From Prochlorococcus marinus XMU1406 (GTDB taxonomy: Bacteria > Cyanobacteriota > Cyanobacteriia > PCC-6307 > Cyanobiaceae): a stretch of 64,000 bases of DNA. The notes beneath the pieces were generated by a model. That model worked only from the letters and a program-made list of their open reading frames with translations, had not been told where the DNA came from and ran no database searches. Shown piece by piece: positions 35,481-53,518 of this stretch. A program made the translations under genes and the position numbers. The DNA lies in the NCBI RefSeq assembly GCF_017696055.1, contig NZ_JAAORG010000001.1, positions 806,001-870,000 on the forward strand. Reading direction: 5' to 3'. Positions within the stretch are counted from its first letter, which is position 1, and each line of letters starts with the position of its first letter.

Positions 35481-36665
35481 TTGAAAGATTTAACTAATTT
35501 AAAAACATATATTATTGACTCTGACGATCCACATGAAGTTGATGACGCTATTTCATTAGAAATAAAAGAAGGAAATAAAAAAAATTTATGGATACATATT
35601 AGTAATCCATGCAAACTCTTTTTGCATGACTCTAATGTTGATTTAGATGCAAGAAAGAGAAATAGCAGTTTATATTTAATTGATCAATATATCCCAATGC
35701 TACCTAAAGATATTGTTGAAAAGGCAAATCTAGCTCAAAACAAAATTTCTGAAACTATTAGTGCAGCAATAGAATTCAACGACGATGGATCAATAAATAA
35801 TTATGAAATAACTGAAGCAATAATAAAACCGAAATATCAATTAACATATGAAGATGCAAATGAAATATTAGAATTAGAACCTAAAGAAGAAACAGAATTA
35901 ATTGAGATTAAAAATTTATTAGAAAAAAGTATTACATTTAGAAAGAAACAAGGAGCAATTATTTTTGAAAGTCCTAATAGTAAAATTAAATTAGATAAGG
36001 ATAAGATTGTACTAAATAAATTAGAGAAAACAATATCACAAATTATAGTTGCAGAATCAATGATATTAATGGGTTATGTAACAAGTTTATTTGTAGAAAA
36101 ATATAATCTAGCGGCCGCGTTTAGGATTCAGAAACTAAATTGTAATCCATCTGAAATACTTAATAAATACAATGATAGTGATATTAAATATATAATATTA
36201 AAACAATATATGGGTAAAAGTTACATAACCACTAAGCCAGGAATCCATGAATCACTAGGTCTTAAAATGTATGTACAATGTACTTCACCATTAAGAAGAT
36301 ATCTAGATTTAATTATACAAAGGCAAGTATATAATAAAATAAATAATTACAAGCTTCTAAGTAAAGATTCAATCTCAAAAATTATTGATTATTCTAAGAA
36401 TAGACAATCAGAGAATAATAATATTTTTAAAAATGATAAATTTAAGTATTTAACATTATTTTTTAAGACTAAAAATAACCCTTTTTATAGAATAATATTC
36501 GTTAAGTGGATTAATTATAAAAAAAATATTGCTTTGGTTTATTTTCCAGATTATTCACTAGAAATACTTATTACTCTTTTTGTATCAATAGAAATATATA
36601 GTAATAAAATATATAAAGTTAAATATATTATAAATGATAATAATCTTTTAGAGTTTATTTATTAA
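35481..36665 (+). CDS. compact RNase II/R-family exoribonuclease (RNB domain only)
   Basis: A 394-residue RNB protein starting at TTG 35481, 46 bp after rpsR. It begins almost directly at the active site: D13, E19, D21 and D22 in IIDSDDPHEVDDAISLE align with the catalytic Asp cluster of RNase II (D201, D207, D209, D210; the second is Glu here). Later RNB blocks are also intact (LPKDIVEKANLAQ, FRKKQGAIIFES, CTSPLRRYLDLIIQRQV). Typical RNase II/R is 640-800 residues with two cold-shock domains and an S1 domain; this one lacks the N-terminal RNA-binding domains, and its C-terminus is at most a degenerate S1-like remnant. Predicted 3'-5' exonuclease. Confidence 0.88.
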   Translation: MKDLTNLKTYIIDSDDPHEVDDAISLEIKEGNKKNLWIHISNPCKLFLHDSNVDLDARKRNSSLYLIDQYIPMLPKDIVEKANLAQNKISETISAAIEFNDDGSINNYEITEAIIKPKYQLTYEDANEILELEPKEETELIEIKNLLEKSITFRKKQGAIIFESPNSKIKLDKDKIVLNKLEKTISQIIVAESMILMGYVTSLFVEKYNLAAAFRIQKLNCNPSEILNKYNDSDIKYIILKQYMGKSYITTKPGIHESLGLKMYVQCTSPLRRYLDLIIQRQVYNKINNYKLLSKDSISKIIDYSKNRQSENNNIFKNDKFKYLTLFFKTKNNPFYRIIFVKWINYKKNIALVYFPDYSLEILITLFVSIEIYSNKIYKVKYIINDNNLLEFIY

Positions 36666-46930: not shown

Positions 46931-48685
46931 TCAAACTTTCAACAATTTAGAAGTTATTAATTTAAAAACTTTTTTATCTATAGTTTCTTGATTTAAAAGT
47001 ATATCAACTAATTTATCTAGTAAGACTCTATTTTTTTTCAATATTTTTATTGAATTATTTAATGAAATTTTAGAAATATTTATGATTTCATTATCTATTC
47101 TAGAACTGGTATTTTCAGCTATGAGAGGCTTTCTTCTAAATAATCCATCTCCTAAATACATTTCATTATTATCAGAATCCATTGAAATTGGACCAATAAT
47201 TGAAAATCCATATTTTGTAACCATTTCCCTTACGATATTTGTCGCATAAGAGATATCATTTATGGAGCATTGTGTAATTTCACGTTCACCAAAAACTATC
47301 GTTTCTGCTGCTCTTCCAGCTAGAGCAATTTCAATTTTTGAAAATAATAATTTTTTTGAAATCAATCCACTAGAAATTACATCTTCGTCAGGGCATATTT
47401 TTGTATATCCTCCTATAGATCCAGATCTAGGTAAAATTGTAATTTTATCAACTGATTCAATTCCATTTCTCACAGCAGATACAATTGCTCTACCTACTTC
47501 GTTATAAGCAATAATTTTTTTCATATTAGGAGAAGTTATTAATGAGCTTCTAAGGCCAATGGTAATTTTATCAAGAGCATTTTCTATATGAAGATCATTG
47601 ATTAATTTAGATTCGTCTCTTGCACAGTGAATAGCACTCTCGTTCATCAAGTTTGCAAGATCTGCTCCAGAAAATCCGACTGTTCTAGAAGCCCAATATC
47701 CAAAGTCAACCTCGCTTGAAAGTGGTTTGGAAAGTGAGTGAACTGAAAGAATTTTTTTTCTTCCATCTAAATCTGGAAGCATTACTTCAATTTTCCTATC
47801 AAATCTACCTGGTCTTAATAATGCTGCATCCAAAATATCTGGTCTATTTGTTGCTGCTAAAACAATAATCCCAGAATTATCAGCAAAACCATCTAATTCA
47901 GTCAGAAGCTGATTAAGGGTTTGTTCTCTTTCATCATTTCCACCTCCGATCCCAGACCCTCTTTGCCTACCAATGGAATCAATTTCATCAATAAAAATTA
48001 TACAAGGAGATTTTTCCTTAGCCTTAGAGAACAGATCACGAACTCGACTTGCTCCAACACCAACAAAAAGTTCTATAAACTCCGAAGCCGATATTGAGAG
48101 AAAAGGTACTCCTGATTCACCCGCAATTGCTTTAGCTAATAATGTTTTTCCTGTCCCTGGTGGGCCTATTAGAAGAACTCCCTTAGGAACTTTCGCTCCA
48201 AGATTTTCAAATTTCTTTGGTTCTTTCAAAAATGTTATTACCTCTTTTAATTCCTCTGCGGCTTCAGGGACACCAGCTACATCATCGAATCTCGTTTCTA
48301 CATCATCAATAGTTACAAATTTAGATTGATTTTTGGTGAAACCAAAAGCTCTGGAGGCCAATTTTGATGTACTCCTCAAGATTAAGACTATAGCTAATAT
48401 GAAAATTAGGAAAAGACTTATTGAAGCGAATGAATTAGCAGCTGAGGCTTCTTTTCTACTATTGTTAATAGTTAGATCTACCTTATTTTCAGTAGCCTTT
48501 TCAAGGATTAATTGATCGTTGTAAAGGATAGGTATTTTAAATTTATCTCCATTTTTATACAGAACATCAATTTCTCTCTGCCTTGGATAGAAAAATATTG
48601 ATTCTATTTTCCCCGTCTCTATATCTTCTAGAAGATCCGAATAACTTGATTTAGAATCTGAATATGAGAATTTTGATCTAAACAC
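46931..48685 (-). CDS. FtsH-family AAA protein lacking the zinc-protease motif
   Basis: A 584-residue FtsH homologue starting at GTG 48685 (a stop lies three codons upstream). The AAA module is intact: Walker A GPPGTGKT (174-181), Walker B IIFIDEID (229-236), and the second region of homology [18 protein letters not shown] (278-295). Where FtsH has HExxH, this has NEVGR (395-399), so both zinc-binding histidines are gone; the third-ligand region [15 protein letters not shown] is kept. It also begins directly with the periplasmic-type domain ([19 protein letters not shown]) and keeps only one helix (about 88-104). Predicted ATP-driven unfoldase/chaperone or regulatory subunit, comparable to plant FtsHi proteins. 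Confidence 0.88.
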
Positions 48686-51295: not shown

Positions 51296-53518
51296 ATGTT
51301 CACATCATCTTCAATAATTGATAATCTTAATCAGTCAGAAGGATTAGAATATAAAAAATTATGCAGATTATTAAAAATTACAAAGAAATCTGATAAGGAT
51401 AAATTAGATATTGCTTTAACAGCTCTAGAAAAACTTGAAATAATTAATAAAAATGAAAATGATGAATATACTTGCATAAAGGATAATGATCATCTTGTCG
51501 CTAAAATAAGATGTAGTAGCAAAGGCTATTGCTTTGCTGTAAGGGGAAAAGACAAAGAAGATATCTATATTAAAGAAAATCTACTTAACTATGCATGGAA
51601 TGGAGATAAAGTTTTAGTAAGGATAATAAAAGAGGGTTATAGAAGAAGATCACCTGAGGGAATAGTTGATTGTATTCTTGAAAGATCAAATCAAATACTT
51701 CTTTCTAAAGTTGAAATAATAAACAATGATGTATACGCAATCCCAATAGACGATAGAATCCTTTCTAAAATTAAACTTCCAAAAGAGAATCAAAAATACA
51801 CTTTCAAACCAGAAAATAAGAATATAGTAAAAGTTGAGATTGATAGATTTCCCATAGGTCAAGAAGAAGGAGTAGGTCATGTGATAGAAGAACTAAAACT
51901 AAACAATAATGAGGAATATGATACAGACTTTGTTTTATCTAAAAGCAATATCGTTAGATCGCATAATTTAAATCATATTGAATCTAAAAAAATAGAAAAA
52001 AGGGAGAGGATAGACCTTACAGATAAAAACTCTTATTTATTCAAAAAATGGAATTCTAAGAATTCTCCAATGCTCCCAATGATTCAAATAGAACAGCTAA
52101 AAAATAAAAGTACTAAATTATGGATTCATACAAATAATCTTGCAGAAAGAGTAGATCTAAATAGTAAAAAATCTCTAGAAATATTATTTAAAGGCTTAGA
52201 ATCATTACCTTTATTAAATGATTGGCAAAACTACATTAGTGAAGCCATAAAAAATGATTCTGAATTTAAATTTGGTGAAAAGAATGAAGCAATAAGCCTC
52301 TGCCTGAATTTAAATAGTGATAATGAAATAATTGATTGGTCATTTCATCTTACTTTAGTAAAATGCTCTCTTATTGTTGGAAGTGATCATACTGATGCAC
52401 TTTTATCTAGAAAAAGTAAATCAAGAATAACCTCTCGGGTATTAAAACCTATAAAGGAATATATTGACGATTTAGATAAAATACTTGAAATTTCATGTTC
52501 ATTCAGACAAAAACATCTTTTGGAGGGTAAGGTTGAAATTCCTGCCCCACTTAATAAAATTGAAGCACTAGAAGAATTTTTTGTTCACAATCCAGCTGAA
52601 TATTCAAAAGGATACTTTGAATCATTAAATAAAGAAGATTGCCAAACTTACCTTTCACCAATACTATATGAAGCTAATTTAATATGGTTCAAACATTCAA
52701 ATCAATATGGCTTAAAAAGTGCAGGATACATCTCAAATGGAATAGATTACGTTAATGCTAATGAAATCATCAAATTTTCAGAATTTATTGATAATGATAT
52801 AGAGCTTAATGAAGATGGCAACTTGACATTTAGTCAAGTAATTAAATTATGCGGCGATGATAATAAAAAAAGAATCTTACATAAACTTCTAATTAATGAA
52901 TTTAAGGACAATGAAATAAGGTTGATATCAAAAAATCCTGATAATGATGAAACAGAAAAATTATTTATTTCTCCATGGACAATTCCTGGATTTGACTTCA
53001 CAAATCTTATAAACCAGTACTGTATTTTTAATATGATAATTAATGGTAAGAAATCAAAGAAAAATAATATAAATGCAATTAATATATCTGAAAGTAATTC
53101 ATTAGACTTAGTTAATTGGGATATATTTAATTCATCAATTTCAAAAAATTTAGAAATATTATTTAATAAGTTTGTGATAGATAAACTAAATGAATTCAAG
53201 TACAAAGTTAACCACTATAAATCTAATATGATAAATATAAAAAAAGTAAGAAAAGCAGAAAAATTACTAGGTAATATTTATAGTGGGTTTATATTATCAG
53301 TACAAACATATGGTTTCTTTGTTGATATATCAGAACTAAATGTAGAGGGTTTAGTACACGTAAGCACTCTTAATAATGATTGGTATGAATATAGGTCAAG
53401 GCAAAATCTATTGATTGGAAGAAAATCTAAAAAATCATATAAAGTTGGAGATGCAATAGAAGTAAAAATCATAAAAGTCGACATCCTTAAATATCAAATT
53501 GATTTAGAATTAACATAA
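51296..53518 (+). CDS. RNase II/R-like protein with degenerate RNB active site
   Basis: A 740-residue protein of RNase R architecture: N-terminal winged-helix-like segment (about 5-60), cold-shock-type RNA-binding region (about 65-200), RNB region (about 235-585), and S1 domain (about 655-740, GFILSVQTYGFFVDISELNV). The RNB entry RIDLTD (238-243) is recognisable, but the catalytic aspartate motif that should follow is absent (residues 250-270 contain no D), and the late SPLRRYxDL motif is replaced by SPWTIPGFDFTN. I infer a non-catalytic RNA-binding protein, or a divergent enzyme with a relocated site. Confidence 0.78.
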   Translation: MFTSSSIIDNLNQSEGLEYKKLCRLLKITKKSDKDKLDIALTALEKLEIINKNENDEYTCIKDNDHLVAKIRCSSKGYCFAVRGKDKEDIYIKENLLNYAWNGDKVLVRIIKEGYRRRSPEGIVDCILERSNQILLSKVEIINNDVYAIPIDDRILSKIKLPKENQKYTFKPENKNIVKVEIDRFPIGQEEGVGHVIEELKLNNNEEYDTDFVLSKSNIVRSHNLNHIESKKIEKRERIDLTDKNSYLFKKWNSKNSPMLPMIQIEQLKNKSTKLWIHTNNLAERVDLNSKKSLEILFKGLESLPLLNDWQNYISEAIKNDSEFKFGEKNEAISLCLNLNSDNEIIDWSFHLTLVKCSLIVGSDHTDALLSRKSKSRITSRVLKPIKEYIDDLDKILEISCSFRQKHLLEGKVEIPAPLNKIEALEEFFVHNPAEYSKGYFESLNKEDCQTYLSPILYEANLIWFKHSNQYGLKSAGYISNGIDYVNANEIIKFSEFIDNDIELNEDGNLTFSQVIKLCGDDNKKRILHKLLINEFKDNEIRLISKNPDNDETEKLFISPWTIPGFDFTNLINQYCIFNMIINGKKSKKNNINAINISESNSLDLVNWDIFNSSISKNLEILFNKFVIDKLNEFKYKVNHYKSNMINIKKVRKAEKLLGNIYSGFILSVQTYGFFVDISELNVEGLVHVSTLNNDWYEYRSRQNLLIGRKSKKSYKVGDAIEVKIIKVDILKYQIDLELT

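Follow-up and report, generated by a model that had tools for sequence, protein, structure and literature searches.

A Zam orthologue of Prochlorococcus marinus that lacks RNB catalytic residues and is kept by selection

What is a protein that is laid out like the exonuclease RNase R and has none of the residues of the RNB active site, and why is its gene kept? The question arises at positions 51,296 to 53,518 on the forward strand of the window, by which we mean the whole 64,000-nucleotide stretch of the Prochlorococcus marinus XMU1406 genome that was analysed. The open reading frame starts with ATG and encodes 740 residues; from the frame, Pfam matches, alignments and a phylogenetic tree, we identify it as an orthologue of zam, encoding an RNase R-like protein of the RNB family without catalytic residues. 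The original prediction held that the winged-helix, cold-shock and S1 parts are retained, and each of them can be located, all on the same strand. The N-terminal region (residues ~1-62; 51,296-51,481) shows helices at residues 4-12, 19-25 and 31-46 followed by two strands in the predicted model and aligns with the N-terminus of RNase R, and so reads as winged-helix-like, with no match of its own in a Pfam scan of the protein. The first cold-shock domain, CSD1 (OB_RNB; residues 70-124; 51,503-51,667), is matched by Pfam with an E-value of 1.9e-15. The limits of the second cold-shock domain (residues ~126-215; 51,671-51,940) were set from the alignment and from strands in the predicted model, the best stretch for the Pfam CSD2 model being residues 87-132, which overlaps CSD1. 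There follow a degenerate RNB domain (residues 238-539; 52,007-52,912), weakly matched by Pfam at 50 bits (E-value 3.5e-13), and an S1 domain (residues 659-737; 53,270-53,506; E-value 4.2e-12). Two cold-shock domains, an RNB domain and an S1 domain in a cyanobacterial protein are the architecture of Zam. RNase R chains are the best sequence relatives of the protein among solved structures; its score against the NCBIfam RNase R model (TIGR02063) is 159.7 bits, below the cut-off of 597.85, and across its RNB part (residues 236-600) it is 10.7% identical to E. coli RNase R.

In a MAFFT alignment with the E. coli sequences, the residues opposite D201, D207, D209 and D210 of E. coli RNase II are K250, P258, L260 and P261 (residues 250-261; 52,043-52,078), and the protein reads K, P, L, P where an RNase R has four metal-coordinating acids. 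An Asp cluster had been predicted to be missing from an RNase R layout at about 52,043-52,105, and these coordinates are right: no four acids align at the metal site of RNase II or RNase R. The predicted loss of a late arginine-rich motif was confirmed as well, the place of TSPIRK/TSPIRR in the E. coli proteins being occupied by TIPGFD (residues 562-567; 52,979-52,996), with the catalytic Arg motif gone. A separate profile-profile alignment of 79 sequences from the window's family against E. coli sequences and sequences of Rnb, the cyanobacterial RNase II, pairs the same stretches, and we therefore reject a misalignment that hides the acidic cluster. All 31 same-genus sequences are without any acidic residue at the four metal-site positions, and all 31 have lost the equivalents of Tyr253 and Tyr313, both of which are kept in 40 of 40 Rnb sequences. 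E. coli Glu390 was considered as an extra lost residue and dropped, since Glu stands there in just one of the 40 Rnb sequences. Judged by sequence, the acidic site of the RNB domain is degenerate or absent, as expected of a Zam, and we are highly confident that the 740-residue protein is Zam and not a metal-dependent exonuclease.

Zam was described in 2022 as a cyanobacterial clade of the RNB family whose active site is degenerate and whose conservation is concentrated in the OB folds, and its authors came upon it in each of the cyanobacterial genomes that they searched (PMC9145284); PMC7125299 names zam as sll1910. According to the former paper, purified Zam of PCC 7002 has no nuclease activity (data not displayed there), deletion of zam gives acetazolamide, pigment and PSI:PSII phenotypes, and Zam genes, often annotated as exonucleases, are not to be counted as such, a caution that the window protein supports. 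The main text of that paper does not mention Prochlorococcus, and in the open-licence literature we found no paper whose title concerns an RNase R, RNB or Zam protein of Prochlorococcus; among open-licence papers, we found no bacterial pseudonuclease of the RNase II/R family other than Zam. The window protein is the local Zam orthologue, and its reading as a pseudo-nuclease with RNA-binding domains, put forward in the original prediction, is supported by sequence, selection and comparison and was already in print for the family (PMC9145284); the partnership with a compact RNB protein, which it also raised, does not explain the loss.

Visualizing relatedness as a quick maximum-likelihood tree of 78 rows, rooted at the midpoint and built without Zam of PCC 7002 or 6803, we observed that the Zam sequences of the family (40 rows) and Rnb (14 rows) each have a support of 100. 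All 62 Zam rows lie together on one side of a split with an SH-aLRT value of 97, and the non-family Zam have a support of only 74. According to PMC9145284, Zam belongs with RNase R of E. coli and not with its RNase II. In our tree, which was flagged for the length of the E. coli branches and for uneven composition, both E. coli rows sit on the Rnb side, each on a long branch, and RNase R does not fall with Zam. By BLAST, one Zam sequence (L027) scores 291 bits against E. coli RNase R and 109 bits against RNase II. On the evidence of this tree, Zam is a clade of its own, distinct from Rnb.

The loss was followed through 167 Zam sequences, each with a frame of 600 codons or more. Of these, 79 come from the window's family (31 from the same genus and 48 from 33 other genera, making 34 genera, mostly with one sequence each) and 88 from other cyanobacteria, 80 of these from named records. 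Out of 567 relatives in bacterial and archaeal genomes, the best 80 were retained, and these 80 bear cyanobacterial record titles. A further set of rows combined 73 of the 80 named loci with the window protein, L101 and six rows without a matched start being omitted. Two duplicate pairs are included (L021/L155 and L027/L065), L002 is the same gene as L003, and two shorter frames, L023 (residues 1-472) and L024 (residues 61-267), both running to a contig end, were excluded. None of the 167 sequences has all four acids, and so part of the acid loss is much older than the window's genus. Within the family, Asp at the four positions is found in 0 of 79 sequences, 71 being without any acid and eight having one, and Arg at the R500 position is likewise found in none. 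Of the other 88, 26 have three acids, 33 two and 29 one, with the Arg kept in 63. In all 40 Rnb sequences, each from the window's family, the Arg is kept and the four positions are acidic, reading D, D or E, D, D. The predicted loss is thus common to the window's genus, in which the protein is a very worn Zam with no catalytic residue left, and the simplest reading of the alignments is that decay set in earlier than the origin of the window's family, whose common ancestor already had the full loss or nearly the full loss.

Could a residual or non-canonical nuclease activity persist in Zam without the four acids? Anabaena Alr1240, which PMC9145284 takes to be a Zam, reportedly breaks down unstructured RNA in the manner of RNase II (PMC10989914), though in 11 of 11 Nostoc Zam sequences the four positions are occupied by E/A, V, E, N; in addition, three Asp are kept in 24 of the 88 non-family sequences. 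The window protein, however, is missing not only the four acids but also the Arg motif and both tyrosines that Rnb retains without exception, and we regard such an activity as very improbable. The exonuclease report for Alr1240 nevertheless sits badly with a dead Zam family, and we count it against our best explanation as a whole.

A gene that has lost its catalytic residues may be on its way out of the genome, and some observations could be taken in this sense: the RNB domain diverges fast, with a mean identity of 15.7% to other cyanobacterial Zam; the stem leading to the window's genus in the tree is long (1.18); and the same-genus fragment L024 matches from residue 61 only, nothing upstream of it matching residues 1-60. 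Against this, all 31 same-genus frames, selected with a minimum of 600 codons, are 738-741 residues long, and the median pairwise dN/dS over the whole of Zam is 0.157, with no part above 0.256. From these frame lengths and ratios we conclude that zam is not decaying, and the idea of a decaying pseudogene is essentially refuted. Constraint is uneven along the protein: dN/dS is 0.059 in both CSD1 (residues 66-125) and S1 (residues 655-740), 0.098 in CSD2 and 0.19-0.21 in the two RNB halves, for pairs limited to dS of 0.1-1.5 (287 to 447 of 465 pairs, depending on the domain). Mean identity within the genus is 92.3% for CSD1 and 90.6% for S1; between the genus and other genera of the family it is 63.1% for CSD1, 58.5% for S1 and 24.0% for RNB. 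Selection keeps zam, and CSD1 and S1 most strongly.

A Zam match was found in 150 of 151 family genomes, the exception being G085, a draft of 30 contigs that is 94% complete and in which a short Rnb was found, and in 36 of 40 relatives. Three of the four misses (G011, G016, G018) are 65-83% complete; the fourth, the class-level relative G026, is a draft of 1150 contigs, 97% complete, with an Rnb and no Zam match. G026 and G085 are possible natural losses of zam, or draft gaps. When viral contigs were scanned once for the window protein, no virus-borne relative turned up.

The genome (1.65 Mb) contains two RNB-family matches, Zam and a compact Rnb, a separate RNase II orthologue at 35,481-36,665 (+) that lies ~14.6 kb from zam, begins with TTG, keeps D, E, D, D and SPLRR, and in Pfam consists of the RNB domain alone, with no OB or S1 match. 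Two short open reading frames just before it are presumably rpmG and rpsR. We take the compact Rnb to be the catalytic counterpart of Zam in this genome. The original prediction had raised the possibility that Zam is its RNA-recognition partner, in effect a split RNase R in which Zam would supply cold-shock and S1 domains in trans to the RNB-only enzyme. The intact site of an enzyme reduced to its RNB domain, the ~14.6 kb between the genes, and the presence of Zam in at least one genome of each of the 12 short-Rnb genera (among the matches listed) would fit this proposal. Among the matches listed, the Rnb frame is short (398-502 codons) in 12 of the 34 family genera and long (675-737 codons) in 21, g40 being judged by a partial match; no Rnb was seen for g25. 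The catalytic residues are gone from Zam in all 34 genera, however, including the 21 with a long Rnb, so that partnership does not explain the loss, and we reject a tie between the inactivation of Zam and the shortening of Rnb. The one long Rnb that was scanned (L035) has no OB or S1 match in Pfam either, and G085 combines a short Rnb with no Zam match. Taken together, we find a split RNase R improbable.

Because Zam is dead in 34 of 34 genera and Rnb short in 12 among the matches listed, the inactivation of Zam preceded the shortening of Rnb. The short-Rnb genera, among the matches listed, are a Prochlorococcus-like clade and g20, and g20 pairs with the long-Rnb genus g42 among the Zam as well as among the Rnb sequences of the tree; on these trees, Rnb would have been shortened at least twice, once in each. 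Each shortening occurred in a lineage already holding a dead Zam, and a dead Zam may therefore have permitted it. A partnership of Zam and Rnb may also have arisen after the loss. Carried to its end, this line of thought gives a two-piece machine of streamlined picocyanobacteria, a minimal catalytic-barrel RNase II steered in trans by a dead, redox-gated Zam shell, which we offer as a speculation with little chance of being right.

If catalysis is not what is being kept, the cysteines of CSD1 may indicate what is. PMC9145284 describes two invariant, redox-active cysteines in Zam CSD1, C73 and C79, each needed in vivo, mutation of either giving the deletion phenotype. The window protein carries cysteines at these very positions (RCSSKGYCF; 51,512-51,532), matching the PCC 7002 numbering. 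C73 is found in 77 of 79 family sequences and C79 in all 79, and the corresponding counts in other cyanobacteria are 88 and 87 of 88. The two family exceptions, L176 (g20) and L182 (g27), have Ser at position 73 and keep Cys79; the cysteine switch is therefore not universal, and these two proteins are natural tests of the disulfide-switch model. Other CSD1 features named for Zam are also present (R72, K76 in loop L12, the loop residue W101 and the Arg repeat R116-R118), while one of the two L12 Phe of the described Zam is Tyr78 here.

From these observations, we hypothesize that Zam would bind RNA, the catalytic region of RNase E, or both, through CSD1 and S1, and would adjust how fast RNA is turned over. 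C73 and C79, in the RNA-contact loop of CSD1, would serve as a redox switch coupled to the state of photosynthesis. Alr1240 is reported to bind RNase E and to enhance its cleavage (PMC10989914, PMC9145284), and the genome has one RNase E/G-family match. In the authors' assays PCC 7002 Zam did not bind RNA, with aggregation noted (PMC9145284), which counts against an RNA-binding mechanism. There is a single match to the phycobilisome family (PF00502) in the genome, and the retention of zam and its cysteine pair alongside it argues that the core role of zam is not phycobilisome-specific; the ancestral task was probably general control of RNA turnover rather than phycobilisome synthesis. Picocyanobacterial Zam is in this respect a useful extreme, having no catalytic residue and a single phycobilisome-family match in the genome, and the parts on which selection still acts most strongly (S1, and CSD1 with the two cysteines) indicate where the core function lies and speak against catalysis or phycobilisome synthesis as that core. 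We put the chances of the redox-gated RNA/RNase E mechanism at about even, and lean, with some reserve, towards the explanation as a whole: a Zam orthologue that has lost catalysis and is kept by selection as a redox-gated regulator acting on RNA, RNase E or both.

The predicted structure agrees with the domain plan. An AlphaFold2 model built with 74 sequences has a mean pLDDT of 74 and a pTM of 0.63, and Foldseek ranks RNase R chains highest among its matches (8cdu, 5xgu, 7dic and others). By Z score (26 to 28), these chains stand level with some of Dis3/Dis3L2. The model supports an intact scaffold that is RNase R-like over most of its length, and the fold is silent on function. The top Foldseek match, 8cdu, is RNase R on a 30S degradation intermediate, and yeast Ssd1 (7am1), whose cold-shock domains contact RNA through their conserved outer face (PMC8934651), was also matched (Z 24.2). 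These matches, together with CSD1 being the best conserved part here too, would suit an Ssd1-like regulator, in which Zam binds particular mRNAs or ribosomes through its outer cold-shock surface and controls translation independently of RNase E. Ssd1 ranked below many active enzymes, however, fold similarity shows no function, and RNase E is the only physical partner that we found reported for a Zam protein (PMC9145284, PMC10989914); we consider an Ssd1-like role possible but rather unlikely, and retain the redox-gated regulator of RNA turnover as the preferred reading.

Directly upstream of zam lie two tandem half-size genes for GDT1-type divalent cation antiporters (PF01169; 50,585-51,223, +). 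A CxxCxxCC protein and the two antiporter halves precede zam in all 33 same-genus loci and in all 17 loci of three other genera (g21, g35 and g43; 1.5 kb flanks); no match to the trio was found in the 80 named loci of other cyanobacteria, within flanks of at most 6 kb, some cut by contig ends, where a miss may also stem from divergence. About 2.6 kb from zam, an FtsH-type protease paralogue (46,931-48,685, -) has NEVGR at the zinc-binding HExxH site, as do two other same-genus loci, with its AAA Walker motifs present. The best-match loci of other genera (41 genomes searched, 30 loci fetched) read HE[IV]GH in 26 of 27 cases and HEAGR in one, and the paralogue is likely to be a pseudoprotease.

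With E. coli RNase R (rnr; PDB 8cdu, 5xgu, 7dic) the window protein shares domain order and predicted fold, but it is without the metal-site acids and the Arg motif and misses the equivalog cut-off. The cyanobacterial Rnb/RNase II (Sll1290; 35,481-36,665 in the window) has the RNB domain in common with Zam and differs in keeping the acidic site and SPxRR and in forming a separate group in the tree. The fungal RNase II-family pseudonucleases Ssd1 and Sts5 have, like Zam, lost catalysis on the same scaffold with their cold-shock domains conserved, whereas they are eukaryotic, stand near Dis3L2 and have elements that block the RNA channel (PMC8934651, PMC8097288); we infer that Zam and Ssd1/Sts5 are independent in origin. 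The closest counterpart is Zam as described from PCC 7002 (A1543) and Synechocystis (sll1910), with which the window protein shares architecture, a degenerate RNB site, the C73/C79 pair, conservation in the OB folds and coexistence with one intact-site Rnb (PMC9145284); relative to that description, it has lost every acid and the Arg of SPxRR, is encoded in a genome with one phycobilisome-family match, and has a far more diverged RNB domain.
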